A stretch of DNA of 64,000 bases from Tautonia marina (GTDB taxonomy: Bacteria > Planctomycetota > Planctomycetia > Isosphaerales > Isosphaeraceae), in NCBI RefSeq assembly GCF_009177065.1, contig NZ_WEZF01000001.1:186001-250000 (forward strand). Reading direction: 5' to 3'. Below are positions 3,686 through 62,743 of the stretch, piece by piece. Both the position numbers and the translations under genes were made by a program. The notes beneath the pieces were generated by a model. It ran no database searches, was not told the DNA's origin, and saw only the letters and a list, made by a program, of their open reading frames with translations. Position 1 is the first letter of the stretch. Each line of letters opens with the position of its first letter.

Positions 3686-5428
3686 ATGACGCTGCTGACT
3701 TCGTTCCTCATCGCTCAGGGCACCGACCTGGCGGTGAACAACTGGTGGGTGATCGGTGTTGTTCTGTTTGCGATCGCTCTGTTTAGCATCGTGACGACGG
3801 CGCTCCGCTGCTACAAGCGGTGCCCGTCGAACAAGATCCTGGTGAAGTGGGGCGCCGGCTCGGGCAAGCAGGCCGCCAAGTGCGTGCAAGGCGGCGGCGA
3901 GCTGGTCTTCCCGATCTTCCAGGATTACGACTACCTGAGCCTCGAACCGATCCAGATCGAGATCCCGCTCCGCGGCGCCCTGTCGTTCGAGAACATCCGG
4001 GTCAACGTGCCGAGCGTCTTCACCGTGGCCATCGGCTCCGACCCTCAGGTGCAGCAAAACGCCGCCATCCGCCTGCTCGGCCTCAGCCGAGAGCAGGTCA
4101 GCAGCCAGGCCAGCGACATCATCTTCGGCCAGCTTCGCCAGGTCATCGCCTCGATGACGATCGAGGACATCAACCGCGACCGCGAAAAATTCCTCGAAAA
4201 CATCCAGCTCTCGCTCGAACCCGAACTGAACAAGATCGGCCTGGTGCTGATCAACGTCAACATCACCGACCTGACCGATGACTCCGGCTACATCGAGGCC
4301 ATCGGCCGCAAGGCCGCCAGCACAGCGGTCAACCAGGCCGAGATCGACGTGGCCGAGCAGCAGAAGAAAGGCTCGATCGGCGTGGCCCGCGCCGAGCAAG
4401 AGCAGGCCGTCGAGGTCGCCAATGCTCAGAAGTTCCGCGAAATCGGTACCAAGACCGCCGAACGCGACCGCACCCTCGAAGTTGCCGAGCTGAACCGAAC
4501 CCAGCAGGTCGGCGTCGAAACCGCCCGATTCCAGCAGGAAGCCAGCGTCAAGCAGGCCGAGCGCGACATGCGCATCCAGCTTGCCGACGCCGACGCTCAG
4601 GCCATCTCCGGCGAAAACTCGGCCAAGGCCAAGGTCGCCGCCAGCAACGCCGAGCTGAACGTCAAGCAGGCCGAAGCCTACCAGATTGGCGAAACCCGCA
4701 AGCGAGAAGCCGAGGCCGCCGTCGCCGAGGCCCAGTACCGCGCCCAGGCCAAGGCGGCGCTGGCCGAGGCCGAAAAGGTCGAGGCCGAACAGCGCGCCAA
4801 GCTCGAAGCCCAGGCCAAGGCCGAAAAGGCCCGGATCATCGTCGACGCCGAGGCCGCCGCCGAACGCCGACGCCTCGAAGCCCGAGCCGAGGCCGACGCC
4901 ATCTTCGCCCAACTCGAAGCCGAGGCCCGCGGCCAGTACGAACAGCTCGCCAAGAAGGCCGAAGGCCTCAAGGCCATCGTCGACGCCTGCGGAGGCCCGC
5001 AAGCCGCCTTCCAGATGCTCATGCTTGAACACCTCGACAAACTCTCCGAAACCGCTGCCCAGGCCATCTCGAACATCAAGTTCGACAAGGTCGTCGTCTG
5101 GGATTCCGGCGCCAACGGCCACAACGGCGACGGCTCCGGCACCGGCGCCACCGCCGGATTCCTTCGCAACATGGCCCACACCCTGCCCCCGATGCTCCAG
5201 ATCATGCAGGAAATCGGCGGCGTGAAGATGCCCGACTACTTCGGCCAGGTCGTCAACAGCGACTCCGACCGCCCCGACGAGGCCGGAGCCGCCAACGGCA
5301 CCGCTCCCGAACCCGCCGGCGCCTCGGCCGGCTCCCCTTCCTCCTCGTCCTCCGGAACCGAGGCCCGCGGTAACCGCTCCGGCTCCGGCTCAAAAGGCTC
5401 TGGAGGCAACCGCCCCCAGAAGGGATAG
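3686..5428 (+). CDS. Flotillin (SPFH/band 7 family)
   Basis: A 580-residue protein anchored by an N-terminal hydrophobic segment (about residues 13-35, VIGVVLFAIALFSIV), followed by an SPFH/band 7 domain to about residue 200. A very long Ala/Glu/Lys/Gln-rich coiled coil spans roughly 205-420, with many AEA/AQA repeats typical of flotillins. The tail is Gly/Ser/Pro-rich and low complexity. Flotillins scaffold membrane microdomains. The ATG at 3686 is preferred over the in-frame TTG at 3665, because the hydrophobic anchor starts soon after it. The gene follows the NfeD-like gene, a common bacterial pairing. Length is close to YuaG/FloT-type flotillins with an extra low-complexity tail. Confidence 0.92.
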   Translation: MTLLTSFLIAQGTDLAVNNWWVIGVVLFAIALFSIVTTALRCYKRCPSNKILVKWGAGSGKQAAKCVQGGGELVFPIFQDYDYLSLEPIQIEIPLRGALSFENIRVNVPSVFTVAIGSDPQVQQNAAIRLLGLSREQVSSQASDIIFGQLRQVIASMTIEDINRDREKFLENIQLSLEPELNKIGLVLINVNITDLTDDSGYIEAIGRKAASTAVNQAEIDVAEQQKKGSIGVARAEQEQAVEVANAQKFREIGTKTAERDRTLEVAELNRTQQVGVETARFQQEASVKQAERDMRIQLADADAQAISGENSAKAKVAASNAELNVKQAEAYQIGETRKREAEAAVAEAQYRAQAKAALAEAEKVEAEQRAKLEAQAKAEKARIIVDAEAAAERRRLEARAEADAIFAQLEAEARGQYEQLAKKAEGLKAIVDACGGPQAAFQMLMLEHLDKLSETAAQAISNIKFDKVVVWDSGANGHNGDGSGTGATAGFLRNMAHTLPPMLQIMQEIGGVKMPDYFGQVVNSDSDRPDEAGAANGTAPEPAGASAGSPSSSSSGTEARGNRSGSGSKGSGGNRPQKG

Positions 5429-5509
5429 GATCAGCTCCTCCATCCCCCGACGCTCGCAACACCCTTTGGGGGGCATCCAGGAACACGGTCCGAGCTTCGA
5501 CCGAGGCCC

Positions 5510-5632
5510 CTGGGTGGCCCCCATTGCTCGCCAATCGGTGCGGCGCAGCCGCAAGAGGCTTTCCGGAGGCGACACGGGCACCGCGCATCGCTGCACGACC
5601 CCGGTTGACGAGTGAGCAACCGAGGTCACCCC
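5510..5632. repeat. Repeat family R1, diverged copy B
   Basis: This copy shares the R1 core: GGGTGGCCCC, TTGCTCGCCAA, GGCGCAGCCGCAAGAGGC, then ACCCCGGTTGACGAG and GAGCAACCGAGGTCACCC. Several substitutions and a short insertion spoil the inner hairpins relative to copy A. The outer 25-bp terminal repeats are not recognisable here. It lies 82 bp after the flotillin stop. Confidence 0.7.
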
Positions 5633-5662
5633 AAATCGGGGACGTTGTTTCTGAAGGCGCCT

Positions 5663-5729
5663 GACTGGGTTCAAAACCGGGGTTTGAGCACATGGTTTCC
5701 TGGGGAAAACCCCAGTTTTGAACCCAGTC
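5663..5729. repeat. Long hairpin (23-bp arms)
   Basis: Inverted repeat with arms 5663-5685 and 5707-5729 (GACTGGGTTCAAAACC and onward) matching at 22 of 23 positions, with a 21-nt loop. It could act as a transcription terminator or be another small mobile palindrome. There is no T-run after the stem on either strand. Confidence 0.7.
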
Positions 5730-6348
5730 TCCTTTGTGTCCTGCGGCCAGACAAGGGGGCTCTCTCCACGCTTGCCCGGCATGGCATCAAGTCCTCCTTC
5801 GATTCCTGACCCCCCTCCTCCCAATCCTTCCCCTCCCGTCTTCTCCCGCCTGCCTTCTGCTTACCGTCACCACTCTGAGCCGATGGTGACCAGTCCCATC
5901 CCCGGTTCTCCCATCCCTTCCCCTTGGATCCCGCGGCCCCCGCGCTTCCCCCAGAAGCTCCGGGGCTGTGCTGTTGTTGTCGGCGCGAGATTTGCAGTGT
6001 GCTGGAACCCTTGGATCGACGATCTCACACCGATGCGAACGTCATCCACCACAAGACGATCGTAACGTCCCGAAGTGCCCTGTGTTGTCGCCTGCATCAA
6101 GGCTTTGGCGATGCGCCGCGACGTGCTGACGGCTCCGCAATAAACCGTTGCAATCCTCCTGTGGCCGACGGGGTTCCATCGACCAGGTTGCGGCCAGTTT
6201 CATGAAGATTGGGTAATTCTTCTGTGAAGTGACCGTTTTCGTCATCTCTTGCAACGCGGATTGCCGGAACGACCACGGAAGGCATCCCAACAGATTCGTG
6301 AGCACTGGTGCCGCCCCAACTGTTTCCAGAGTATTTCTTTGTGCAATC

Positions 6349-7128
6349 ATGAAAATGCCTCTGTCACCCGGCTCGGCGTTCAAATGGCTCGCGGCGATTG
6401 TGGTCGTGCTGACGGCAATCTCCGGGCTAATCCAGTTCCTCTCCCTCGGCCTGGGTCACAATCGCCTGCTCGGGTTTGCGCGCTTATTTGACGTGGGCCT
6501 CGATGCGAACGTGCCGACCTGGTGGTCCTCGCTGGCGTTGACTCTCTGCGCGGCGCTCATGGTCCTCATCGGCGCCGAGCACCGACGGCGAGGCGATTCT
6601 TCGTCACGCTCCTGGTGGTTCCTGGCCGCGATCGTCTGCTTCCTTTCGATCGACGAAACCGCCGTCATTCACGAGCGCGTGGGCAACTCCGTCAGCGTGA
6701 TGCTCCAGGAACTGCTGACCGGTTCCTCCATCTGGGGCGGGGCCTACTGGATTTATGCCTATCTGATTCCCGGGATCATTCTTTCCATCGTCTATCTTCG
6801 GTTCTACTTCCGCTTGCCGACGCGAACCCGTTGGCTCGTGACCTTGGGGGGCGGTGCCCTCGTGACCGGCGGGGTCGTGTGCGAGGCGCTCGCCCATCAC
6901 CTCCTCCGCCCTTCCCTCGGCGAGGTGGCCTATCAGGTTATGACGATCGTTGAGGAGTTCCTGGAGATGATCGGCGTGGTCATCCTCGTCTCCGGCCTGC
7001 TCGACTACATCCACCTCGCCTTTGGCGGCCTGACCCTGTCCCTCGACATCCGCCACGCCCCTGCCCAACGCGCTGTCGCCGATGCCTCTCATCACGATCG
7101 CCAGGTTGCCACGCTGAACCGGTCCTGA
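6349..7128 (+). CDS. Multi-pass membrane protein of unknown function
   Basis: 259 residues from the ATG at 6349. Hydrophobic segments lie at about 12-33, 60-77, 89-101, 131-150, 163-185 and 206-225, suggesting five or six membrane passes. Two polar/acidic motifs at membrane edges stand out: SIDETAVIHE (about 100-109) and EEFLEMIG (about 202-209). They look conserved in character, and I recall similar FLSxDE..IHE motifs in unnamed membrane proteins, but I cannot name a family. The frame extends upstream to a GTG at 6229, but that extension is polar and lacks a ribosome binding site. No obvious operon partner: the next gene is 399 bp away. Confidence 0.65.
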   Translation: MKMPLSPGSAFKWLAAIVVVLTAISGLIQFLSLGLGHNRLLGFARLFDVGLDANVPTWWSSLALTLCAALMVLIGAEHRRRGDSSSRSWWFLAAIVCFLSIDETAVIHERVGNSVSVMLQELLTGSSIWGGAYWIYAYLIPGIILSIVYLRFYFRLPTRTRWLVTLGGGALVTGGVVCEALAHHLLRPSLGEVAYQVMTIVEEFLEMIGVVILVSGLLDYIHLAFGGLTLSLDIRHAPAQRAVADASHHDRQVATLNRS

Positions 7129-7527
7129 TCCTGGCCACCTTTCCCAATCCCCATTCGACCGAGATGGACGAGCCCGCCGTGCCCTCCTCAACCCTCGCCG
7201 CTTGCGGGGGAGAGGGTGGCCGAAGGCCTTGGCCGTCCCCACGGACTCTGTCCACCGATGCGTCGTGAGTCCCCCTCTCGCCAAGACGTCAGGGTACCGA
7301 GACGATCGATCCGGTCCCTCGACAACCACCCTTCCCCTCCCTCCCTCTCCTCTCCCTTCTCCCCTCTCTGCGTCTCTGCGCGCGATCCCTCTCCCTGTTT
7401 CCCTCCTCCCCTTCCCCCCCTCCTCGCGATCCGGTTGCATCCCGGGGTTCCGGTTGGCCATCCTGGGTCGATCCCCACGCCGCCAATCGGGGCCGACCAT
7501 CCCTCGCTTCGCTTCGGAGGACGCACC
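7129..7527. other. Intergenic region with strong polypyrimidine tracts
   Basis: 399 bp without a gene. Two uninterrupted pyrimidine runs lie on the plus strand at 7329-7369 (41 nt) and 7398-7425 (28 nt). A palindromic GC element (CTCGCCGCTTGCGGGGGAG) lies near 7191-7212. The frame of the downstream phosphatase is open through much of this region, but it is Pro/Ser/Arg-rich and not convincing as protein. Confidence 0.55.
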
Positions 7528-8190
7528 GTGCGCTACCCCTCGATCCTCGTCACCGACTTCGATGGCACCCTCACGTCCCAGGACTACTACAGGCTCGTCC
7601 GCGACCGTCTCGTGCCCGACGACACCCCCGACTACTGGTCGCTCTACCGCAACGGCCAGCTCACCCACTTCGAGGCGCTTCGGGCCTACTTCGCCGCCGC
7701 CCGGCCCGACGAGCCGACCCACCTCGCCCTCGTCGACCTCATGGGGCTCGACCCGAACCTGGCCCAATCCGTCGCCGCCCTGAACGAGCAGGGCTGGAAG
7801 GTGGTGGTCGTTTCCAACGGCTGCCAGTGGTACATCGACCGCTTGCTCCGTCAGGCCGGGGTCGATCTGGAGGTACACGCCAACCCCGGCGCCCTCGAAG
7901 GGGGCCGCCTGGCCATGCACTGGCCGACTGACACCCTTTACCCCTCGAAGCAGACCGGCATCGACAAGGCGGCCGTCATCCGGGCCTACCTCGAAGAAGG
8001 CCGCACGGTCGCCTTTGCCGGCGACGGCGCGACCGACGTCGCCCCGGCGCTGCTCGTGCCCCCCAATCGCCGCTTCGCCCGCGCCGACCTGGCCGAAGGG
8101 CTCCGCGAGCAGAACGCCTCGTTCCGCCCCTTCGAACGCTGGTCCGAGGTCGCCAACGCCCTGCTCGAATCCACCGGGGAGGCATCATGA
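7528..8190 (+). CDS. HAD-superfamily phosphatase (MtnX/SerB-like, subfamily IB)
   Basis: A 220-residue soluble hydrolase. HAD motif I is DFDGT at residues 10-14, where D10 would be the nucleophile. Motif II is VVVVSNG. A Lys lies in the SKQTGIDKAAVI stretch (motif III). Motif IV is FAGDGATDVAPA. It resembles MtnX and phosphoserine phosphatase-like enzymes. The GTG at 7528 is chosen because GGAGG sits seven bases upstream and the DxDGT motif then begins at residue 10, as usual in the family; longer upstream frames give a low-complexity extension. Its stop overlaps the start of the glycerol-1-phosphate dehydrogenase gene (ATGA). This suggests translational coupling and a phosphatase acting on a related phosphorylated polyol, but the substrate is inference. 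Confidence 0.85.
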   Translation: MRYPSILVTDFDGTLTSQDYYRLVRDRLVPDDTPDYWSLYRNGQLTHFEALRAYFAAARPDEPTHLALVDLMGLDPNLAQSVAALNEQGWKVVVVSNGCQWYIDRLLRQAGVDLEVHANPGALEGGRLAMHWPTDTLYPSKQTGIDKAAVIRAYLEEGRTVAFAGDGATDVAPALLVPPNRRFARADLAEGLREQNASFRPFERWSEVANALLESTGEAS

Positions 8191-9242
8191 GCGGCTGGCG
8201 CACTCAGGTTGGAATCCCCTCCTTCGTTCGGATCAAGCCCGGAGCGCTCGACCGCCTCGGCCTCTACGCCGCCCGGCACAAGCACCGCCGGATCGCCCTG
8301 ATCGTCAGCGAAGGGCTGCCGGCCGCGATCGTCGCGCGGGCCGAACACGCCCTGAAGGCCGAAGGTGCCTCGGCGGTCGACCGGATCGACTCCGGCGAGG
8401 CCAGTTTCGAGGCCGCCTCGGCCCTCTTTGCCGCCTTGCCCCGAGACGCCGATGCCATCATCGGCCTCGGCGGCGGCAAGGCGCTCGACGTGGCCAAGTA
8501 CGTTGCCTTCCTCGTCGGCAAGCCAAGCTACGCCGTGCCCACCTCCCTCTCCAACGACGGCTTCTGCTCTCCCCAGTCGAGCCTCACCCTGCGCGGCGAT
8601 CGCCGATCGCTGCCCGCGGCCTTGCCGTTCGCGGTGGTCGTCGATACGACCGTCTGCCTCGGCGCTCCGAAGCCCCTCTGGTGGTCCGGCGTCGGCGACC
8701 TCGCCGCCAAGGTCACGGCCGTCAAGGACTGGAAGCTCTCCTACCACGCCACCGGCGAGCCGGTCGACGACTTCGCCGCCTTGCTCTCCGACGCGACCGT
8801 CGCTCAGTTCTTCTCCCGACCGACCCTCGACGACGAAGGGATGCGCCTGCTCGGCACTGCCCTGATGCTCAACGGCATCGCGATGGCCGTCTGCGGTTCC
8901 TCTCGACCCGCCAGCGGCGCCGAGCACCTCATCTCGCACGCCCTCGACGCCCTGTCCGCTCGCCCCCGCTTGCACGGGCTTCAGGTCGGCGTCGCCACCT
9001 ACCTCGTCAGCCATCTGCAAGGGGAAGGGACCGCCCGCATCGCCGATGCCTTCGACCGTACCGGCTTCTGGGATGGCATCCGCGCCGACCCGTTCCTCGC
9101 CTCTGAGTGGATCGACGCCGTTCGCCGCGCCCCGACCATCAACCCCGGCCGCTTCACCATCCTCTCCTCCCGCGACTGCGTCGGCGAGGTCCGCGACCTG
9201 ATCGCCACCGACGATCGCCTGAAAGGATGCTTTCTCCCGTGA
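8187..9242 (+). CDS. sn-Glycerol-1-phosphate dehydrogenase-like protein (Fe-ADH/AraM family)
   Basis: A 351-residue protein of the dehydroquinate synthase/iron-alcohol dehydrogenase fold. The nucleotide-binding motif GLGGGKALDVAKY is at about 93-105. PTSLSNDGFCSPQ is at about 118-130. Likely metal ligands, by alignment with the family pattern, are D171 (GVGDLAAK), H247 (ASGAEHLISH) and H263 (LHGLQVG). Known members make sn-glycerol-1-phosphate from dihydroxyacetone phosphate, for archaeal lipids or, as AraM in Bacillus, for an unusual bacterial lipid. It overlaps the upstream HAD gene by four bases. The role in this bacterium is not shown by the sequence; another polyol-phosphate or aminocyclitol dehydrogenase activity is possible. 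Confidence 0.85.
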   Translation: MSGWRTQVGIPSFVRIKPGALDRLGLYAARHKHRRIALIVSEGLPAAIVARAEHALKAEGASAVDRIDSGEASFEAASALFAALPRDADAIIGLGGGKALDVAKYVAFLVGKPSYAVPTSLSNDGFCSPQSSLTLRGDRRSLPAALPFAVVVDTTVCLGAPKPLWWSGVGDLAAKVTAVKDWKLSYHATGEPVDDFAALLSDATVAQFFSRPTLDDEGMRLLGTALMLNGIAMAVCGSSRPASGAEHLISHALDALSARPRLHGLQVGVATYLVSHLQGEGTARIADAFDRTGFWDGIRADPFLASEWIDAVRRAPTINPGRFTILSSRDCVGEVRDLIATDDRLKGCFLP

Positions 9243-9311
9243 TGGGGCCGATCGTTGTTCTCCTTCCCGTCCCTGATGTCGTAGGACACTCAGCAGAGGC
9301 CGCGCTGTTCG

Positions 9312-12300
9312 TTACCAGTCGAGGTGCAAGGCGGTCAGTTCCGAGCGAAGCGCGAGCAGGTCCCAGACCTCGACCACGCGATCCTCGGGCGATCGGAAGT
9401 CGAGGCTGGCCAGGTGGCGGCCGTCGGGACTGAAGGTCAGGCCGAAGATCGGATCACTCCGCCGAGGGAGCCGCAGCAATCGGTGAGGGACCGGATCGCG
9501 AGGGTTCCCGATGCTCCAGAGATTCAACGCCCCGCCGCCGTCGCCAATCGCCAGCAGGCGGCCGTCGGGGCTGAAGGCCACCGCGAGGGTCCAGCGGGTC
9601 GTGCTCGGGTCGGGCGACGGGAACTCGGCAACGACCGACCACGAGTCGGTGGCGATCAACCGGGCGTCGCCGGCTTCCCCCCCGATCGCCAGCAAGCGGC
9701 CGTCGGGGCTCAGCGCCAGGCTCCGACACGACTCGAATTCCGGGACGTCGAGCGGTTTGGGCGGGGCCCCGGCGTCATCGAGCGACCAGGCGTGCAGGTC
9801 GTTCCGATCGAGGAAGTACAGCGTTCGGCCGTCGGGGCTCAGGGCGGTGGTGGGCTGGAACGGGTCTCGGGGCACGCCCGGCTGGGGCTGGAACCCGCGA
9901 TCCGGCGGTTCCAGCCGGGTCAACGTGCCGGGGCCGTCCGACTCGTCGGCGCGCCAGAGCCAGAACTCGAAGGGGGGGCGCAACGGGCCTCGGAAACGCC
10001 CCGAGTCGGAGCGTTCCCGATCCCCCTCCCGATCGCGTCGTACCGAGTCGTCCGGGCGCAGGTCGAACTCGCGGAGGATCAAGGCGGTGCGGCCATCGAC
10101 CGATTGCGTCATCAGGCGAAGGCCGGCGGAGGGAGGCACCGGAGCCGAGGGGGGATCGGGCCAGGGGGTTAGGTCGATCGGCTCGTCCGCGTCGAGCGAG
10201 GCGAAGCGGGCGAGACCCTCGGGACCGAAGGCGAGCACCCGCCCCTCGGGATCGAAGGCCAGGGCCGCGGTCTGCCCTTCCGGGCGTTCCCAGGGACGGG
10301 CTCGGGTCGGGCAGTGCTCCGGATGCCAGACGCGCGGGGCGTCGTGGTGCAACGGCAGGAGCATCAGGCCCTCGGGGCCGAAGGTGGGCAGGCGGGTCGG
10401 TTCTCCGGCCGGAATCTCGAAGCCGACCCGGCCGATCGGCTCGACGATCGACCAGACCTCGGCCGTCGGGCCCGACGCCACCAGCAGGGTCCGCCCATCG
10501 ACGAAGGTCACATCCTGCACCCAGGTCGCCGTCGGGATCGAGGCGACCGGAGCATTGGCCGCCGGGTCCCAGATCTCGATCCCGGTGTTTCGGCTCGCCG
10601 TGGCCAGCAACCGGCCGCTCGGGCTGAACCGGAGCATCCGGACGAACCCTTCGCTCAGCCCCGGCAACGGCACGGCGGGCGACCCGGAGAAGGCGTCCAC
10701 CTCCCAGAGCTGCACCCGACCGTCGCCGGCCGCGGCGATCAGGCCCCCCGGCCCGACCGTCAAGGCCGTCAGGCCGATCCCCGTGTCGAACCCGGACAGC
10801 CGGCCGCCGTCCTCGGCATCGAAGATCACCAGGCGAGTCTCCGGGGCCGTCCGGCCGACGACCACCGTCTTGCCCTCCGGATCGAACTCGACCAGCGGCC
10901 AGGGAGACAGCCGAAAGCCCGGCTCGAAGGTGATCTCGTCGAGCGTGGCCAGCGGCGCGGGAGAGGCGTCGAAGTCCCAGAGACGCACCCGAACGCCCGC
11001 GGCCGATCCGCGCGACCGGCGGCCCGACCGGCCCGAATCGTCGTCGGCCTCGTCGGATTCCTCACGCTCCTCGGCCGGGGGCCGGGGAATCGCCTCGATC
11101 GTCACGAGCCGGTGCCCTTGCTTTGGAGCGAGCAGGCCGAGCACCTCGGCCCCGTCGAGATCCAGGGGCCGAACCGATCCGCTCTCCGGATCAACCAGTA
11201 AAATGCCCGGAGCGCTCGGGTTCAGCACCGCGATCGACGACCCGAGGACCGCCAGGCTGGGGCCCCAGGCTCCTCGTCGGGGAGGACTCGGGGGCCTGGA
11301 ATCGTCGTTCGTCACCTCCGCATCAGTCCGAACCGTGGGGGGGCGAAGCGGAACGGTCAACAGGGCAACCCGATTGTCGGGGTTCCAGAGGGTGAGGGTT
11401 TCGCCGTCCTCGCTCAGCACGGCCACCCGATTGGGAGCGTCTTCCTCGTCGTCGGTGCGGCCGAGCGAGACGAGGCCGCGCACCCGGCCGGTGGCCAGGC
11501 TCGGCCGGTCCTCGACATCCCGAGCGGCCAGCAGCTCGAGCGCCTCGTCGCGGAGCGCAACCCGCATCGATTCGTCGGGAGACAGCGCGGCGGCCTCGCG
11601 GAGCTTCGCCCGCCCCTCGTCTCGGCGGCGGGGCATGGTCGAGGCGCGCAGGACCGGCAACTGGCTGAGCAGCTCACCGGCCCGCGCCACCTGTTCGGCC
11701 CGCGTTGCGGCCCGTTGTTTTTCCAGGGCCGAGGCCAGCTCGCGCTGAAAGACCAGGGCCCGGTCCCGTTCATCGGCAACCCGGACGTAGGCGACGGTCG
11801 CCGTGATCAGAATGGCCGCGGCGGCGACCGTGGTAATGAGCGACGCCGTCGGGTGCCGCTGAACGAGGCGCCAGGTTCGGCCGATCGGGCTGATCCGCCG
11901 GGCCTGGACCGGCTCCAGGTCGAGGAAGCGGCCGAGGTCGTCGGCCAGCTCGGCGGCCGATTCGTAGCGGTCGCCCGGGCGCTTGCTCATGGCCTTCAGG
12001 ACGATCGTCTCCAGGTCGCGCGGCAGGCGGCGGGCGAAGCGTCGGAGCGGGGGCGGTTCGCGGTCGACGATCTGGCGGACCAGCTCGGCCGAGGTCTGGC
12101 CGTCGAACGGCGGGCGGAGGGTCAACAGTTCGTAGAGGGTTGCCCCCAGGCTGTAAACGTCGGTGGCCGGGCCGATCGGTCGGCCGTCGGCCTGTTCGGG
12201 GCTCATGTAGCGAGGGGTGCCGACCGGGCCGTCTCCTCGGGTCTGGCCGGGGTCTTCCAGGCGGCGGGCCAGGCCGAAATCGGCGACCCAGACAATCCCC

Positions 12301-13190
12301 CGAGCATCGACCAGCAGGTTCGACGGCTTCACGTCGCGGTGGATGATCCCTCGGCGGTGGGCGTAGGCCAGGGCCTCGGCCGCCTGCTTGCCGACGCGAG
12401 CGACCCATCGGTAATACTCCGATCCGGTCGGCGGGACGAAGGCGGGGGGCCGGTCGTCGAGCCGAGCCGCATCGGACGCCAGGCGGACCCGCTTCGTCCA
12501 CGATCCGGGGGTCTCGCCGCCGGCCGTCTGGCCGGGCACCGAGAGCAAGGCGGAGCCGAGGCTGTCGTCTCGGATCGCGGTGGTCGCGTCGCGGTCGGTC
12601 GGCATCGGGCTTCGACCGCTCGGAGAACCGGAGGCGGTCAGCCGATCGCGCCGTAGGACGCGCAAGACCCGGTCGAGCCCGCTCCCTTCGATCCGCTGCA
12701 TCGCGTAGTAGCAAAGCCCGCCGACCTGCCCCACGTCGAAGACCGGCACGATATGCGTATGGTGCAGGCCCGCGGCCGTCTTCGCCTCGTTCAGAAACCG
12801 CCGACGGCCCGACGACCCCGGCGCGGCGTGGCCGCCGAGGATCTTCAGGGCGACCGGGCGATCGAGGTCGACGTGAACCGCCTCGTAGACGACCCCCATG
12901 CCGCCGCGGCCCAGTTCTCGAACGATCCGGTAGCCGGCCACCCGGTAGCCGGCGGCCAGGCGTCTCGACCCGACGCCGCCGGGTCCCGTTCCCGATCCGA
13001 CGAGCCCCTGAACCAGGGCCAGGCCATCGAGCGCCTCGCGCAGTTCGTCGGCCAGTTCCGGGTACGATCGGGCGAAGACGTCAGGCTCGGGAGCTCGGCC
13101 CGATTCGGCCAGCTCCAGATACGCCTCGATCGCCTCGCCGAGGCGTTCGTCCCGGTCACTGGCTTCGGTACCGGCGTGCTGCAGCGCCAT
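9312..13190 (-). CDS. Membrane-anchored Ser/Thr protein kinase with C-terminal WD40 repeats
   Basis: A 1292-residue Hanks-type kinase. The kinase domain is at about 87-425. The Gly loop is GRGGMG (94-99), the ATP Lys is K116 (VALKIL), the catalytic loop is HRDVKPSN (284-291), DFG is at 304-306 and GTPRYMSPEQ follows. A Ser/Thr-rich insert of some 75 residues (about 183-255) sits in the hinge before helix E. A single transmembrane helix at about 449-470 is followed by a short coiled coil, then about 800 residues with WD40-like repeats (LSPDGRLLAIGG, FSPDGRHLASLD). Start: GAGGG ahead of the ATG. It lies 144 bp downstream of an ECF sigma gene on the same strand, a linkage known in planctomycetes. 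The kinase probably receives a periplasmic or protein-bound signal through the propeller. Confidence 0.95.
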   Translation of the reverse strand: MALQHAGTEASDRDERLGEAIEAYLELAESGRAPEPDVFARSYPELADELREALDGLALVQGLVGSGTGPGGVGSRRLAAGYRVAGYRIVRELGRGGMGVVYEAVHVDLDRPVALKILGGHAAPGSSGRRRFLNEAKTAAGLHHTHIVPVFDVGQVGGLCYYAMQRIEGSGLDRVLRVLRRDRLTASGSPSGRSPMPTDRDATTAIRDDSLGSALLSVPGQTAGGETPGSWTKRVRLASDAARLDDRPPAFVPPTGSEYYRWVARVGKQAAEALAYAHRRGIIHRDVKPSNLLVDARGIVWVADFGLARRLEDPGQTRGDGPVGTPRYMSPEQADGRPIGPATDVYSLGATLYELLTLRPPFDGQTSAELVRQIVDREPPPLRRFARRLPRDLETIVLKAMSKRPGDRYESAAELADDLGRFLDLEPVQARRISPIGRTWRLVQRHPTASLITTVAAAAILITATVAYVRVADERDRALVFQRELASALEKQRAATRAEQVARAGELLSQLPVLRASTMPRRRDEGRAKLREAAALSPDESMRVALRDEALELLAARDVEDRPSLATGRVRGLVSLGRTDDEEDAPNRVAVLSEDGETLTLWNPDNRVALLTVPLRPPTVRTDAEVTNDDSRPPSPPRRGAWGPSLAVLGSSIAVLNPSAPGILLVDPESGSVRPLDLDGAEVLGLLAPKQGHRLVTIEAIPRPPAEEREESDEADDDSGRSGRRSRGSAAGVRVRLWDFDASPAPLATLDEITFEPGFRLSPWPLVEFDPEGKTVVVGRTAPETRLVIFDAEDGGRLSGFDTGIGLTALTVGPGGLIAAAGDGRVQLWEVDAFSGSPAVPLPGLSEGFVRMLRFSPSGRLLATASRNTGIEIWDPAANAPVASIPTATWVQDVTFVDGRTLLVASGPTAEVWSIVEPIGRVGFEIPAGEPTRLPTFGPEGLMLLPLHHDAPRVWHPEHCPTRARPWERPEGQTAALAFDPEGRVLAFGPEGLARFASLDADEPIDLTPWPDPPSAPVPPSAGLRLMTQSVDGRTALILREFDLRPDDSVRRDREGDRERSDSGRFRGPLRPPFEFWLWRADESDGPGTLTRLEPPDRGFQPQPGVPRDPFQPTTALSPDGRTLYFLDRNDLHAWSLDDAGAPPKPLDVPEFESCRSLALSPDGRLLAIGGEAGDARLIATDSWSVVAEFPSPDPSTTRWTLAVAFSPDGRLLAIGDGGGALNLWSIGNPRDPVPHRLLRLPRRSDPIFGLTFSPDGRHLASLDFRSPEDRVVEVWDLLALRSELTALHLDW

Positions 13191-32746: not shown

Positions 32747-35365
32747 TCAGGGCTCGGGCTCGGGCTCGGGGTCCGCGACGGCTCCGGGGGCCGGGTTGGC
32801 GTCGTCCTGATGGGTAACCGCTTCGTCATCGGCAACGGCGACGAGCCGGAGCAGGCGAGCCCCTTCAGCAAGCGAATGGTCGCCGCCCGGCTGGTTTTCG
32901 AAGGAGCACCCCCGCGAGGCGACGGTGGCGTCGGACGCGAGTTCAAGGCCGAAGCGGGCGTTGCTCGACAGCTCGCAGTCGACCAGATCGACCCGGCCCG
33001 ACTCGACCGAGACGCCCGATCCACCATTCGAGGTCAAGCGGCACGCGACCAACTGCCCCAGGGCGGCGCTGTGCGCGAAGACGCCGGATTGGGTGTTCTC
33101 GGTGATCGTACAGTCGAGGAAGGTCGCACCGCTGGAGCCGGACAGCTCGGCCCCGGCATAGGCGTTCGATCGGATCACGCAGCGATCGAGTAGCGCGGGA
33201 GATTGCTCCTCGATGAGTAGTCCGGCCTGTTCGTTCTCCGCGATCAGGCTATCCACCAGCACCGTGCGGGTCGCGCTCTGGATCCGAAGGCCGGTCTGGC
33301 CGTTCTTGGAGAAGGTGCAGGCGGTGAAGGTCCCTCGGCTGTTGGAGGCCAGCCAGGCACCGTCCTCGCCAGCCTGCGAGAAGATGCAGTCGCGGAAGAC
33401 GCCGAGGCTGGAGTCGGTCAGGCGAAGGTTGTCGACACCGTTGTTCAGGAGCCCCAGAAGTTCCCCCTGAACACGGGCCTCGTCTCGGACGAGTAATCCG
33501 ACCTCGGCGTTCTCGGAGAGTTCCGAGCTTCGGAGGGTCAACCGGGACTCATCGGCGGCGACGATGCCGGAGGATTCGTGGTCCTGGATCGTGCATCGAT
33601 CGAGGGTGGCCGTGCTGTCCTCGATCAGCATGACCCCGGAGAACGGGCCGCCGTGGATGTCCGAGGTTCGGAGAACCGGATCGGCCGTCCCCCGGATGAC
33701 CAGGCCGTTCGATCGAGCGGTGTCGAAGACGCAGTCCTCAAGAATCTGGCGGCCCTCGGTGATCTCGACCAGGGGAGCCGGGTCGTCGCTGGCGACGTCG
33801 TCGGCGCGTCGGACGGTCAGGTTGCCCAGGAAAACGCCCGAGGAGTTGATGAGCAGCGGGGTGTCGTCGGGCAGTTCGAGGACGACCTCGGAGGGGTCGT
33901 CGCCGATGCCGATGAGGATGATCGGCTGATCGATCTGGAGCGACTCTCGGTAGACGCCGCCCATGACGAACAGGATCATGCCCTCGCTCTGTTGCAGACC
34001 TTCGGCAATGGTGCGGGCATCTCCCCGGCCCTCGGCATCGACGAGGGTGACCATCATGTCCTTGAACTGCTGCAATCGAGATGGCTCGGGGGTGTCGGGG
34101 GTCTCGATTCCGGGGCCGGGATTGAGCAGCCAGACGCCACGGAAGAAGGCGCGGGCCAGGTCGTCGTCGAGCTTGCCCTGGCGGGCATTGACGGCCATCA
34201 GGTAGCCGGTCGAGCCGTCCCGGAAGACCTCGATCCAGGTGTCGAAGGTCTTGCGTTCGCTCTGCGATCGGTAGCGGACCGATCGGCCGGGCAAAGGGCC
34301 GTAGCGGATGCGATCGGCCGGCTGGACGAGCTCGTGACGCCCTTCGAACAGGCTGTCGGTCAGGAACTGGGCGAAGAAGGCGTCGTCGTCGAGCCTCAGG
34401 GCCTCGTCGGGGTAGGTGGTGCGGCCGACGGAGTAACTCATCCCGTCCTGATCAACGAAGGCGGAGGCATCTTCGGCCGGGCCGAGCTGGGTGTCGAGGG
34501 TCTCAAGGGCCAGCTCGGGAGGAGCGGGCAGGGCCATCCGGATCTGCAAGGCGGGGGATCGATGCACGACCCAGCCCTCGGGAGCCTCCTCGGTGCGGTC
34601 GGCCAGGCGGTCGGGGAGGTCGTCGCGCGGGGGCTCGGAGCGGAAGGGGGGAGGGCCGATCGCCGGATCGGGTCGGGCCGGAGCGTCCCGGATCATCGCC
34701 ACCAGGTCCGGATGCCCGCTGAGCCAGGCGACGTCGGCCGCGGTGTTTCCCTCGTCGTCGCGGAGCGTCGGGTCGGCACCGGCGTCGAGCAGGACCCGGA
34801 CGACCTCGGCGTTGCCCTTCGAGGCGGCCCACATCAAGGGAGAAATCCCCATCGGGTCCTGGTCGTCGACCTCGGCCCCCGCCTCGATCAGGCGGGAGAC
34901 GACCTCGGGGTTGCCGGCGGTGATGGCCATCAGCAGCGCATTGGAGCCCTCGGCATCGACCGGATCGACCTTGGCTCCCCAGTCGATCAGGCTGTCGACC
35001 ATCGCCAGGTTGCCGCGTCCGGCAGCGATCATCAAGGCCGTGACCCCGGTCTGAGTGCTGAGGTTCGCGTCGGCTTGGTTGAACAGGAGGATGTCCAGGG
35101 TTTCCGCCGACTCGTACCAGGCGGCGATCATCAGGGCGGTCATGCCGGTCCGGGGGGCCTTGGCGTTTCGGTCGGCCCCCTGGTCGATCAGGAGCAGCGC
35201 GGCCTTCCAGTCGTCCTGTTGGGCGGCCTTCATGAGCGGGGTCCAGTCGGAATCGTCGAGATCCCGCTTCTGGGCGGAGAGGGTTGCAGGCAGAACCAGC
35301 AGCAAGGCGAGGCCGCCGGGCAGTCCACCACGCAAAGCCAGCCGCATCCAGCAATAGCGTTTCAT
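32747..35365 (-). CDS. Exported ankyrin-repeat/parallel beta-helix fusion protein
   Basis: 872 residues with a signal peptide (about 1-31, GGLALLLVLPATLSAQ). Ankyrin repeats span about 40-225 (DWTPLMKAAQQDDWKAALLL, GMTALMIAAWYESAETLDIL, GVTALMIAAGRGNLAMVDSL, GISPLMWAASKGNAEVVRVL). A middle globular region is at about 255-425. A right-handed beta-helix of NosD/CASH type runs from about 470 to 850, with repeats such as SSGIVAADESRLTLRSSELS and QAGLLIEEQSPALLDRCVIR. The tail is acidic and Pro/Glu-rich. The ATG at 35365 is chosen because GGAGG sits seven bases upstream. Likely periplasmic or surface; the combination of ankyrin and beta-helix modules is uncommon. Confidence 0.9.
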   Translation of the reverse strand: MKRYCWMRLALRGGLPGGLALLLVLPATLSAQKRDLDDSDWTPLMKAAQQDDWKAALLLIDQGADRNAKAPRTGMTALMIAAWYESAETLDILLFNQADANLSTQTGVTALMIAAGRGNLAMVDSLIDWGAKVDPVDAEGSNALLMAITAGNPEVVSRLIEAGAEVDDQDPMGISPLMWAASKGNAEVVRVLLDAGADPTLRDDEGNTAADVAWLSGHPDLVAMIRDAPARPDPAIGPPPFRSEPPRDDLPDRLADRTEEAPEGWVVHRSPALQIRMALPAPPELALETLDTQLGPAEDASAFVDQDGMSYSVGRTTYPDEALRLDDDAFFAQFLTDSLFEGRHELVQPADRIRYGPLPGRSVRYRSQSERKTFDTWIEVFRDGSTGYLMAVNARQGKLDDDLARAFFRGVWLLNPGPGIETPDTPEPSRLQQFKDMMVTLVDAEGRGDARTIAEGLQQSEGMILFVMGGVYRESLQIDQPIILIGIGDDPSEVVLELPDDTPLLINSSGVFLGNLTVRRADDVASDDPAPLVEITEGRQILEDCVFDTARSNGLVIRGTADPVLRTSDIHGGPFSGVMLIEDSTATLDRCTIQDHESSGIVAADESRLTLRSSELSENAEVGLLVRDEARVQGELLGLLNNGVDNLRLTDSSLGVFRDCIFSQAGEDGAWLASNSRGTFTACTFSKNGQTGLRIQSATRTVLVDSLIAENEQAGLLIEEQSPALLDRCVIRSNAYAGAELSGSSGATFLDCTITENTQSGVFAHSAALGQLVACRLTSNGGSGVSVESGRVDLVDCELSSNARFGLELASDATVASRGCSFENQPGGDHSLAEGARLLRLVAVADDEAVTHQDDANPAPGAVADPEPEPEP

Positions 35366-35972
35366 TAGACCCTCCTTCGCCAATGCGTTGCGATGGGCGA
35401 TCCGGGTCAGGTCGCCCTCGGCCGCCAGACTCCAGAACGAAAGACAGCCCCACCCCGCGACCGTTGCTTCGGAACGGTTTGCGAGGAGGGGCCGTCATGG
35501 CAAGACTCGCCGACCCGACATGAGTCGATGCTTCGATTCTCCCGCGCTGGTCGAGCGCGGGTCAATCGGGTGTTCGTTGCGGGTCATGGCGATGATGCGG
35601 GACGGCATCGTCGTCTGAGAACGGGGCGGTGGCTGCTTTGGAACGCAGCGGAGGTTGACCATTCGGATCGACGGACGGAGGCCAGGAAAACCGTTGGAAT
35701 TGGGCTGGTCGTTGGTTTCATTCCGATCTCTTGCGCATTTAGAATTGTCGAAAGCAAGTCGAGCATGGCGCACGTCGGGTGGTCAGCCTGATGGCGTCGG
35801 CGTTCACCCGGCGGGTTCCCGAAGATCAAAGCCGGTAGGGGGAACGAACCGATCTTGAACGAGTCGGAACGGTCGAGAGCGGTTCTCCCTGGCATCGATT
35901 GGTTTTCGGACCGTGGGGAGTCTTCTCGGTCGATCGGCTCGATCAGTCCAGACGCGAGTGGAGGTACGTGAG
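35366..35972. other. Divergent intergenic region upstream of the ATPase gene
   Basis: 607 bp between divergent genes, no supported gene. A small perfect hairpin CCCGCGCT-GGTCG-AGCGCGGG lies at 35541-35561. Nothing else recognisable. Confidence 0.5.
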
Positions 35973-59047: not shown

Positions 59048-60490
<1,443 letters not shown>

Positions 60491-60538
60491 GGCGAGGCTC
60501 CTTTCCGAGTCGGGGCAGGGGGCTGGGGTGGGAACGAA

Positions 60539-62743
60539 TCAGTCGATCAGGAGAAATTCATTCGACGCGAGCAACGCCTGAGCATAGACCGCCCAGCGCT
60601 CGGAGTCGTCGCAGGAGTCGGAGCCGAGGAAGGAGAGGGCCAGTTGCGTTTCGGCCTTGCTGGGAGGGCGGGCGTAAAGCAGGCGGTACGCCAGGTCGAT
60701 CCGGGCGTCCGGGTCGTCGCCGGCCTCGCTCGCCAGGCGATCGGCCAGGCGATCGGCGTGGTGGGTGACGAACGGGCTGTTGAGGACAAAGAGCTTCTGA
60801 AGCGGAGTGGTGGTGCGGGCTCGGCCGTCGCTGTGGGCGTTCGGATCGGGGAAGTCGAACCGGGCGAGCATCGGGTGCAGCTCCAGGCGGCTGATCTTGC
60901 TGTAGAGGGTTCGGCGGCCGACTTCGGGATCGCTCGGGTCGATCGACGGGCCGCCGACGGTGCGGTCGAGAGTGCCGGAGGCGGCCAGAATCGAATCGCG
61001 CCAGCTCTCGACCACCAGGCGCTTGCGGCTGGCACGGGCGTAGAGGGTGTTCTCAGGATCGATCGCGCGGTGGGCGTCGGTAATGGTGCTTGACTGGCGA
61101 TAGGTGCTGGAGGTGGCCAGCTCGCGGACGAGGGTCTTGAGCGACCAACCCCACTCGGTGACGAACCGAGCGGCCAGGTCGTCGAGCAGTTCGGGATGCG
61201 AGGCCTTTTCACCCAGGATGCCGAAGTTGCTCGGCGTGCCCACGATCGACTGGCCGAACAGTTGCCCCCAGACGCGGTTGACGAAGACGCGGGCCGTCAG
61301 GGGATTGCTCGGATCGATGATCGCCTCGGCCAGGTCGAGCCGACCGCTGGAGGAGTCGTCTCCCAGGGGGATGGGCTCGCCCTCGGAGAGGACCGAGAGG
61401 AAGTGGCGGCGGGCCACCGGCCCTTTTTGCTCGACGTTGCCGCGGATGAAAACGTTCAAGTCCTTCGGGTCGGAGTCCTTGATGATGTGCATGGCCTCTT
61501 CGGGAGCCTTGGCGCCGCCATCCTTTCCCAGCTCGCACTCGTCGGTGAGCGGCTGGTTGAACATGACGGTGCTGGCGAAGACCCCGGCCAGGGCGTAGTA
61601 GTCTTCGGTCGAAATCGGATCATACTTGTGATCGTGGCAGCGGGCGCAGGCGACCGTCAGGCCGAGCAGACCTCGGGAGACGACATCGACCCGGTCCTCC
61701 CACTCCTCGGCCATGACCTCAGGGGAGTTGCGGCGGTAGTACTTCGGGCCGAGGCCGATGAAGCCGAGCGCGGCCAGTTCGTCGGTGTTGGCCGGTTCGA
61801 TCAGGTCGGCGGCGAGCTGGCGACGGATGAAGGTGTCGTAAGGCATGTCGTCGTTGAGCGCACCGATCAACCAGTCGCGATAGAGGTAGGCGTTGGGATA
61901 GGTCAGCGAGGTGTCGTTGCCGACGATATGGGCCTGGTCCTCGGCATAGCGGGCCAGATCGAGCCAGACGCGCGCCCAGCGCTCGCCGAAGTGAGGGGAA
62001 GCGAGCAGACGATCGACGTACTGGTCGACGGCGTCGGGCGAAGGGTCAGCCACGAACGCCTCGACCTCGGCCGGGTCGGGAGGTAGGCCGACCAGGTCGA
62101 TCGAGAGGCGGCGAGCGAGGGTCCGGCGGTCGGCCTCGGGGTTTGGCGCCAGGCCGGCATCATCAAGGCGAGCAAGAATGAAGGCATCAATCGAAGATTG
62201 GACCCAGGCGGGGTCGGAAACCTCGGGCGGTTCGGAGCGCTTCGGGGCCTGATAGGTCCAGGAGGAGCGGGCGGCGTCCCAGTCGATTCCTTCGGCCGAA
62301 GGTTCGGAGGGGGCGGGGGTGTCGTCGTCGCGGGGGTCGGGGGCTCCCATCTCGACCCACTGTTCGAAGGCGGTGATCACCTCGGGGGCGAGTTTGTTGG
62401 AGGGGGGCATCTGGACATACGAGTCGTAGCGAATGGCCTCGATGAGCAGGCTCAGTTCCGGGTCACCCGGCTCGACGGCCGGACCGCCATCGCCTCCCTG
62501 AAGCATGGCGGCGCGGGTGTCGAGCCGCAGCCCTCCCTTGGCGGCGTCGTGCTCGGCCGAGTGGCAACTGTAGCACTGCTCGATCAGGACCGGTCGAATC
62601 TTTGCCTCGAACAAAGCGAGTCCTTCAGCCTCGTCGGCCGAAGCGCGGACCTGCGGAGCCATTCCCAGCACGATGGCCAGGGCGGCGGCCGTGGTGATTC
62701 CTCGACCGCTCCCGCGATCAACCGACTTGGGGGCAAGGCTCAT
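60539..62743 (-). CDS. Cytochrome C-type PSCyt1/DUF1549/DUF1553 protein
   Basis: 734 residues. Signal peptide at about 1-35. A planctomycete cytochrome C domain carries the heme motif C57-Y-S-C-H61. DUF1549 spans about 185-395 (DAFILARLDDAGLAPNPEAD, then RRLSIDLVGLPPDPAEVEAF). DUF1553 runs from about 470 to the C-terminus (NPLTARVFVNRVWGQLFGQS, HPELLDDLAARFVTEWGWSL, STYRQSS). The ATG at 62743 lies close to a weak GAAAGG site. Paired with the downstream DUF1501 gene, likely co-transcribed. A redox or scaffold role outside the cytoplasm is assumed. Confidence 0.96.
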   Translation of the reverse strand: MSLAPKSVDRGSGRGITTAAALAIVLGMAPQVRASADEAEGLALFEAKIRPVLIEQCYSCHSAEHDAAKGGLRLDTRAAMLQGGDGGPAVEPGDPELSLLIEAIRYDSYVQMPPSNKLAPEVITAFEQWVEMGAPDPRDDDTPAPSEPSAEGIDWDAARSSWTYQAPKRSEPPEVSDPAWVQSSIDAFILARLDDAGLAPNPEADRRTLARRLSIDLVGLPPDPAEVEAFVADPSPDAVDQYVDRLLASPHFGERWARVWLDLARYAEDQAHIVGNDTSLTYPNAYLYRDWLIGALNDDMPYDTFIRRQLAADLIEPANTDELAALGFIGLGPKYYRRNSPEVMAEEWEDRVDVVSRGLLGLTVACARCHDHKYDPISTEDYYALAGVFASTVMFNQPLTDECELGKDGGAKAPEEAMHIIKDSDPKDLNVFIRGNVEQKGPVARRHFLSVLSEGEPIPLGDDSSSGRLDLAEAIIDPSNPLTARVFVNRVWGQLFGQSIVGTPSNFGILGEKASHPELLDDLAARFVTEWGWSLKTLVRELATSSTYRQSSTITDAHRAIDPENTLYARASRKRLVVESWRDSILAASGTLDRTVGGPSIDPSDPEVGRRTLYSKISRLELHPMLARFDFPDPNAHSDGRARTTTPLQKLFVLNSPFVTHHADRLADRLASEAGDDPDARIDLAYRLLYARPPSKAETQLALSFLGSDSCDDSERWAVYAQALLASNEFLLID

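Follow-up and report, generated by a model that had tools for sequence, protein, structure and literature searches.

A HAD phosphatase gene coupled to a glycerol-1-phosphate dehydrogenase-like gene in Tautonia marina: a widespread bacterial pair with a proposed role in glycerol formation

Results

Two overlapping genes lie on the plus strand of the window, by which we mean the whole 64,000-nucleotide stretch of the Tautonia marina genome analysed here. The upstream gene (7528–8190, GTG at 7528 to TGA at 8190) encodes a HAD-IB, MtnX-like phosphatase of 220 amino acids (PF12710, TIGR01488), and the downstream gene (8187–9242, ATG at 8187 to TGA at 9242) encodes a dehydrogenase of 351 amino acids that resembles glycerol-1-phosphate dehydrogenases (G1PDHs) and belongs to Fe-ADH_2 (PF13685). 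The stop of the first gene and the start of the second share an ATGA at 8187–8190, and both genes have a GGAGG ribosome-binding site readable on the same strand: at 7516–7520, 7 nt before the GTG, for the HAD gene, and at 8178–8182, within the HAD gene and 4 nt before the ATG, for the dehydrogenase gene. The HAD frame in the ORF finder extends upstream to 7216; the conserved protein starts near 7528. The initial annotation had described these as two coupled genes, which is borne out for both frames and for the overlap, and its names for them, HAD phosphatase and glycerol-1-phosphate (G1P) dehydrogenase, fit the evidence best.

The flanking genes covered by a Pfam scan are one for an SPFH-domain protein, two with no Pfam match and, on the opposite strand, one for a sigma factor; a long frame also runs on the opposite strand at 9312–13190. 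The scanned genes suggest no function for the pair, and there is no glycolytic neighbour among them. Elsewhere in the window, on the minus strand, one protein (32747–35383) carries ankyrin repeats followed by a right-handed beta-helix region, and a planctomycete-type DUF1501 gene adjoins a PSCyt1/PSCyt2/PSD1 gene (59048–62743).

The pair is conserved well beyond the window. Among 59 related genomes, its own included, 12 carry a close dehydrogenase (E below 1e-100); the HAD gene lies immediately upstream of it in 11 and on another contig in the twelfth (G033). The HAD gene is present in all 12 carriers versus 7 of the 47 relatives lacking the dehydrogenase, or 8 with one partial match (Fisher p ~5e-8, uncorrected for relatedness). 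A one-genome-per-species scan, from which the best 80 of 141 relatives were taken and in which distant members are not represented, was pooled with the window and the relatives to give 87 non-redundant loci after 5 duplicates had been removed. All counts out of 87 below include these best 80 of 141. In 68 of the 87 the HAD gene immediately precedes the dehydrogenase gene on the same strand; the start is resolvable in 40 of these 68 pairs, of which 37 have a spacing within 30 nt, the commonest value being −4, a 4-nt overlap (17 of 40). Given 11 of 12 close relatives and 68 of 87 loci with the HAD gene directly upstream, the pairing is more than chance. The loci come from more than 10 phyla, including Planctomycetota, Verrucomicrobiota, Kiritimatiellae, Lentisphaerae, Omnitrophota and Elusimicrobiota, and further Thermodesulfobacteriota, Myxococcota, Acidobacteriota, Actinomycetota, Balneolota and Sumerlaeota. 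Within its own phylum the dehydrogenase is patchy, occurring in 12 of 393 sampled genomes; it is 82% identical in Tautonia sociabilis and 93% identical in another genome of the same genus. The earlier view that such an enzyme is uncommon in bacteria calls for some qualification: the clade is patchy, yet spread over many phyla.

The association is not universal. An adjacent HAD gene is missing from 19 of the 87 loci, 2 of them at contig ends, and these include all seven myxococcal loci. In the 17 genomes that hold 18 of these 19 loci, a HAD homologue elsewhere is strong in 3, weak in 3 and not found in 11. One myxococcal locus with no adjacent HAD homologue (L059) has a HAD-IIA gene that overlaps the dehydrogenase start by 4 nt. 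Conversely, since the HAD gene occurs in relatives that lack the dehydrogenase (the seven, plus the partial match, noted above), twice behind phosphoketolase and acetate kinase genes, it may have another substrate. Individual loci add some variety: a Nitratidesulfovibrio vulgaris DP4 plasmid (L141, 8989–10038) encodes a 60% identical dehydrogenase with no HAD gene beside it; at two loci without a HAD gene (L212 and L213, about 5170–7060) the gene upstream of the dehydrogenase resembles, by eye, a short-chain reductase; and a contig labelled Candidatus Krumholzibacteriia (L043), which may be misbinned, encodes a dehydrogenase 77% identical to that of the window, with a HAD homologue elsewhere in the MAG.

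The phosphatase scores 51.6 bits against PF12710 (Pfam cut-off 27) and 70.2 bits against the HAD-IB model TIGR01488 (cut-off 45). The catalytic residues D10, D12, S96, K147, D166 and D170 are identical in all 68 HAD homologues of the loci set, drawn as above with the best 80 of 141 relatives; the HAD alignment comprised 34 of these 68 sequences, 33 picked by hand together with that of the window. With these residues in place, the protein is an intact HAD-IB enzyme. The structural model (pLDDT 96.5) has as its top solved match MtnX (2fea, Z 23.3), and also aligns with the Dunaliella structure 6iuy (Z 13.9, 191 residues). Against the MtnX model TIGR03333 the protein reaches 39.4 bits, versus a cut-off of 303.2, and acireductone dioxygenase (PF03079) has no match in the window's genome.

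The dehydrogenase scores 130 bits against PF13685 (Pfam cut-off 28) and 217.2 bits against the NCBIfam G1PDH equivalog NF002022, below its cut-off of 413. Other PF13685 matches in the genome reach no more than 39 bits, too weak to suggest a second G1PDH candidate. The model (pLDDT 90.5) is closest among solved chains to 3ce9 (Z 49.2, 35% identity), and matches the G1PDHs 4rgq (with NADPH and DHAP), AraM 9h4x and 5fb3 at Z 39.2, 38.7 and 38.1, versus 32.3 at most for glycerol dehydrogenases. D171, H247 and H263, presumably the Asp/His/His metal ligands, are identical in all 87 homologues, as is S239-R-P-A-S-G244, and the wider SRPASG-EH-LHG signature is invariant or nearly so across the 87 loci. 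The same segments occur, with small differences, in the Methanocaldococcus 4rgq, 5fb3 and AraM 9h4x chains.

In a tree of 52 sequences, built by a quick method and including 39 of the 87 core sequences hand-picked for spread, the window's dehydrogenase belongs to a separate clade (SH-aLRT 98) that adjoins 3ce9 and a Cytobacillus protein (SH-aLRT 93). AraM-like proteins form their own group (SH-aLRT 95), and two archaeal sequences fall nearer the GldA outgroup. Because the tree contains several long branches and partial PDB sequences, we use only the separateness of the clade. Taken together, profile, fold, signature and separate clade favour describing the dehydrogenase as the representative of a third G1PDH clade, alongside archaeal EgsA and AraM. 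The initial annotation had held that placement in a different Fe-ADH or cyclitol dehydrogenase clade, together with the lack of any G1P-using enzyme, would tell against its reading. The evidence goes halfway: the clade does stand apart from EgsA and AraM, but relative to GldA it still falls inside the G1PDH family, and the one G1P-using lipid enzyme looked for is missing.

We found no geranylgeranylglyceryl phosphate synthase (GGGPS, PF01884) above cut-off in any of the 59 genomes, the 12 dehydrogenase carriers included, and no match of any kind in the window's own. The sole sub-threshold match is a partial one in G053 (21.5 bits versus 23.9). A control set of 14 genomes gave a match in 7, with 5 above cut-off; B. 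subtilis is among those that match. The window's genome contains the ordinary glycerol-3-phosphate (G3P) dehydrogenase GpsA, together with two MIP channels and a single glycerol kinase above cut-off. The idea that G1P serves special lipids, raised with the original description of the locus together with a search for GGGPS-like genes elsewhere in the genome, is therefore not supported, that search having returned nothing above cut-off and GpsA being present. An archaeal-type lipid route was rejected because none of the 59 genomes has a GGGPS above cut-off.

Glycogen, glycolysis or phosphoketolase-type neighbours occur at 12 of the 87 loci versus none of 60 random control windows (about 13 kb each, from six chromosomes, planctomycete only), a comparison that is partly circular, as the queries (glycogen phosphorylase, glycogen debranching enzyme, phosphofructokinase, class I aldolase, phosphoglycerate mutase, phosphoketolase, acetate kinase and polyphosphate kinase 2) were picked from the loci themselves after viewing. 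For this reason the test was repeated on 8 loci found after the queries had been fixed: 4 of the 8 (3 of 7 without one duplicate) had a neighbour match, and 5 of the 8 had the HAD gene. Most neighbourhoods of the dehydrogenase are uninformative. The clearest glycogen and glycolysis settings are L060, with phosphofructokinase (PFK), HAD, dehydrogenase and class I aldolase genes and phosphoglycerate mutase further on, and L078, with the order GlgP (glycogen phosphorylase)-GlgX-PFK-HAD-dehydrogenase. L109 reads GlgX-PFK-HAD-dehydrogenase, and in L029 the dehydrogenase gene is divergent from PFK.

Phosphoketolase and acetate kinase genes are neighbours in L061, L067 and L119, and in L133 and L134 (about 6100–10700) phosphoketolase, acetate kinase and the HAD gene stand in a row with no dehydrogenase. 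Among the relatives (G000–G058), however, phosphoketolase is anti-correlated with the dehydrogenase, being found in 1 of 12 carriers versus 28 of 47 others (p 0.002), and it was not found in the window's genome (G000). For these two reasons we rejected phosphoketolase fermentation as the usual context of the pair in the window's own family. At one further locus (L137, G013:C95, 6053–7469) only 14 nt separate a MIP channel gene from the HAD homologue that follows it, and no dehydrogenase gene is close by.

In other planctomycetes, three of five neighbourhoods of AraM-like dehydrogenase genes include a HAD-IIA gene (G011, G028 and G052, but not G017 or G016, the last of which is cut on one side). 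In one planctomycete locus (L041, 5134–8827) an AraM-like dehydrogenase gene, a HAD-IIA gene and a glpD-like gene lie side by side. A survey of plasmids, in which 5 records were inspected from a spread of 40 of 89, gave a similar array on an Agrobacterium plasmid (L144, 4656–8348), where an annotated G1PDH, a different HAD phosphatase and glpD are side by side. These two arrays are perhaps a G1P catabolic set. The HAD-IIA genes beside AraM-like genes and the Agrobacterium plasmid set indicate that phosphatases of at least two HAD subclasses are joined to members of the G1PDH family.

Discussion

On balance, our results favour a model in which the pair encodes consecutive enzymes that lead from DHAP through sn-glycerol-1-phosphate to glycerol. 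We infer that the dehydrogenase would reduce DHAP with NAD(P)H to sn-G1P, and that the HAD protein, in its proposed role as an sn-glycerol-1-phosphate phosphatase, would hydrolyse this product to glycerol and phosphate, a step that would make the route irreversible. The net conversion of DHAP and NAD(P)H to glycerol could serve as an electron sink, or provide a compatible solute, during mobilisation of carbohydrate reserves, and use of the "wrong" enantiomer would insulate this flux from the sn-G3P that GpsA supplies for phospholipids. Of the ideas offered when the locus was first described, release of free glycerol by the phosphatase fits the evidence best. It is supported by the conserved pairing, the intact catalytic residues, the G1PDH fold and signature, the lack of a GGGPS above cut-off in the genomes searched and a glycogen or glycolysis setting at a minority of loci. 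Further support comes from the HAD-IIA pairing, which is a non-homologous repeat of the same design, and from the MIP channel gene ahead of the HAD homologue in L137. Against the glycerol model stand the 19 of 87 loci with no adjacent HAD gene, the anti-correlation with phosphoketolase, the NF002022 score below cut-off and the window's lack of a glycolytic neighbour among the scanned genes. In addition, the glycerol kinase in the window's genome could make the route futile.

The proposed route would be the mirror-image counterpart of the glycerol pathway in yeast and algae. In yeast, Gpd1/2 and Gpp1/2 convert DHAP to glycerol phosphate and then, through a HAD phosphatase, to glycerol, which serves as an electron sink and osmolyte. 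The window's dehydrogenase is not homologous to Gpd1/2, and the proposed intermediate is the opposite enantiomer. The algal counterpart is a bidomain enzyme (PMC7468427) that joins an N-terminal phosphoserine-phosphatase-like HAD domain to a G3P dehydrogenase and makes glycerol directly from DHAP. The window's pair resembles this enzyme (Dunaliella 6iuy) in coupling a phosphoserine-phosphatase-type HAD to what we propose is a DHAP reductase. It differs in being bacterial and in consisting of separate, overlapping frames and not a fusion, and its Fe-ADH-family dehydrogenase would make sn-G1P, whereas the algal enzyme makes sn-G3P.

Archaeal EgsA (4rgq, 5fb3) shares the fold, the presumed metal ligands and, with small differences, the SRPASG-EH-LHG signature, but the window's dehydrogenase falls in a separate clade, has a phosphatase gene attached and comes from an organism in which no GGGPS was found. 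In B. subtilis, AraM (a G1PDH) and AraL (a HAD-IIA protein) are encoded in one operon. The likeness to the window's pair lies in joining a G1PDH-family enzyme of similar fold to a HAD phosphatase; the differences are that AraL belongs to another HAD subclass, that the operon serves arabinose and that B. subtilis has a GGGPS match. AraM is a G1P dehydrogenase (PMC4244643), and AraL is reported to be a sugar phosphatase of weak and broad activity that does not act on glycerol 3-phosphate (PMC3207120). The nearest solved relative, Clostridium acetobutylicum 3ce9, is labelled "glycerol dehydrogenase". A haloarchaeal enzyme annotated as a G1PDH has been assigned as a glycolaldehyde reductase (PMC9700705), and this case is a warning against naming such enzymes by similarity.

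The main rival explanation is that the pair makes another polyol, with the dehydrogenase reducing a different phosphorylated ketose or aldose, such as erythrose 4-phosphate, erythrulose phosphate or a pentulose phosphate, while the HAD protein frees erythritol or a pentitol. Phosphoketolase makes erythrose 4-phosphate from fructose 6-phosphate, and the HAD gene or the pair lies near phosphoketolase in L061, L067, L119, L133, L134 and L216; the dehydrogenase clade is also distinct and below the G1PDH cut-off, and AraM-like relatives have ribulokinase or arabinose genes as neighbours. Even so, most dehydrogenase-bearing relatives lack phosphoketolase, the DHAP-type signature is invariant in all 87 homologues, and the PFK-HAD-dehydrogenase-aldolase run points to a triose phosphate. 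We regard another polyol as unlikely. It is improbable that the pair acts in catabolism or metabolite repair, removing erroneous or lipid-scavenged sn-G1P by oxidation to DHAP and dephosphorylation. AraL has been proposed to detoxify accumulated phosphates (PMC3207120), the Agrobacterium plasmid set includes an FGGY kinase and an ABC transporter besides its annotated G1PDH, HAD and glpD genes, and L041 combines an AraM-like gene with HAD-IIA and glpD-like genes, but all three cases belong to the AraM clade. Among the inspected neighbours of the window's clade there is one GlpT-like transporter, in the HAD-less L068, and the nearby glycogen and glycolysis genes suggest that flux leaves the DHAP pool.

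Supply of sn-G1P by the dehydrogenase to an unusual bacterial lipid or head group, with the HAD protein as a side or quality-control activity, is decidedly improbable. The family membership of the dehydrogenase would be consistent with such a use, and AraM of B. subtilis feeds heptaprenylglyceryl phosphate (PMC4244643). Nonetheless, a phosphatase translated together with the dehydrogenase would destroy G1P, the neighbours scanned include no recognised lipid genes, and the 59 genomes gave no GGGPS above cut-off. We consider it extremely improbable that the HAD protein is a genuine methionine-salvage MtnX whose gene overlaps that of the dehydrogenase by coincidence. MtnX is its nearest solved structure, but its gene stays paired with the dehydrogenase gene across phyla, and methionine salvage was rejected on the TIGR03333 score and the lack of a PF03079 match in the genome.

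Returning to the glycerol model, we tentatively propose, as a possibility at somewhat less than even weight, that a third G1PDH clade and a dedicated HAD phosphatase form a widespread bacterial glycerol route via sn-G1P, stereochemically insulated from phospholipid synthesis. The recruitment of two HAD subclasses would suggest that lipid-free use of G1P is common among the bacterial members of the family. We found no papers on such a dehydrogenase–phosphatase pair among the open-licence literature.

Bacterial G1P dehydrogenases are usually treated as clues to the lipid divide, and it is mainly in that context that they are discussed (PMC6431249, PMC5059525). Should the product of this clade indeed be dephosphorylated to glycerol, finding a G1PDH-like gene in a bacterium would carry no information on archaeal-type membranes, and lipid and non-lipid enzymes would be mixed in trees of the G1PDH family. 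The pair would then represent a concrete, assayable route to glycerol in many phyla, both cultured and uncultured.
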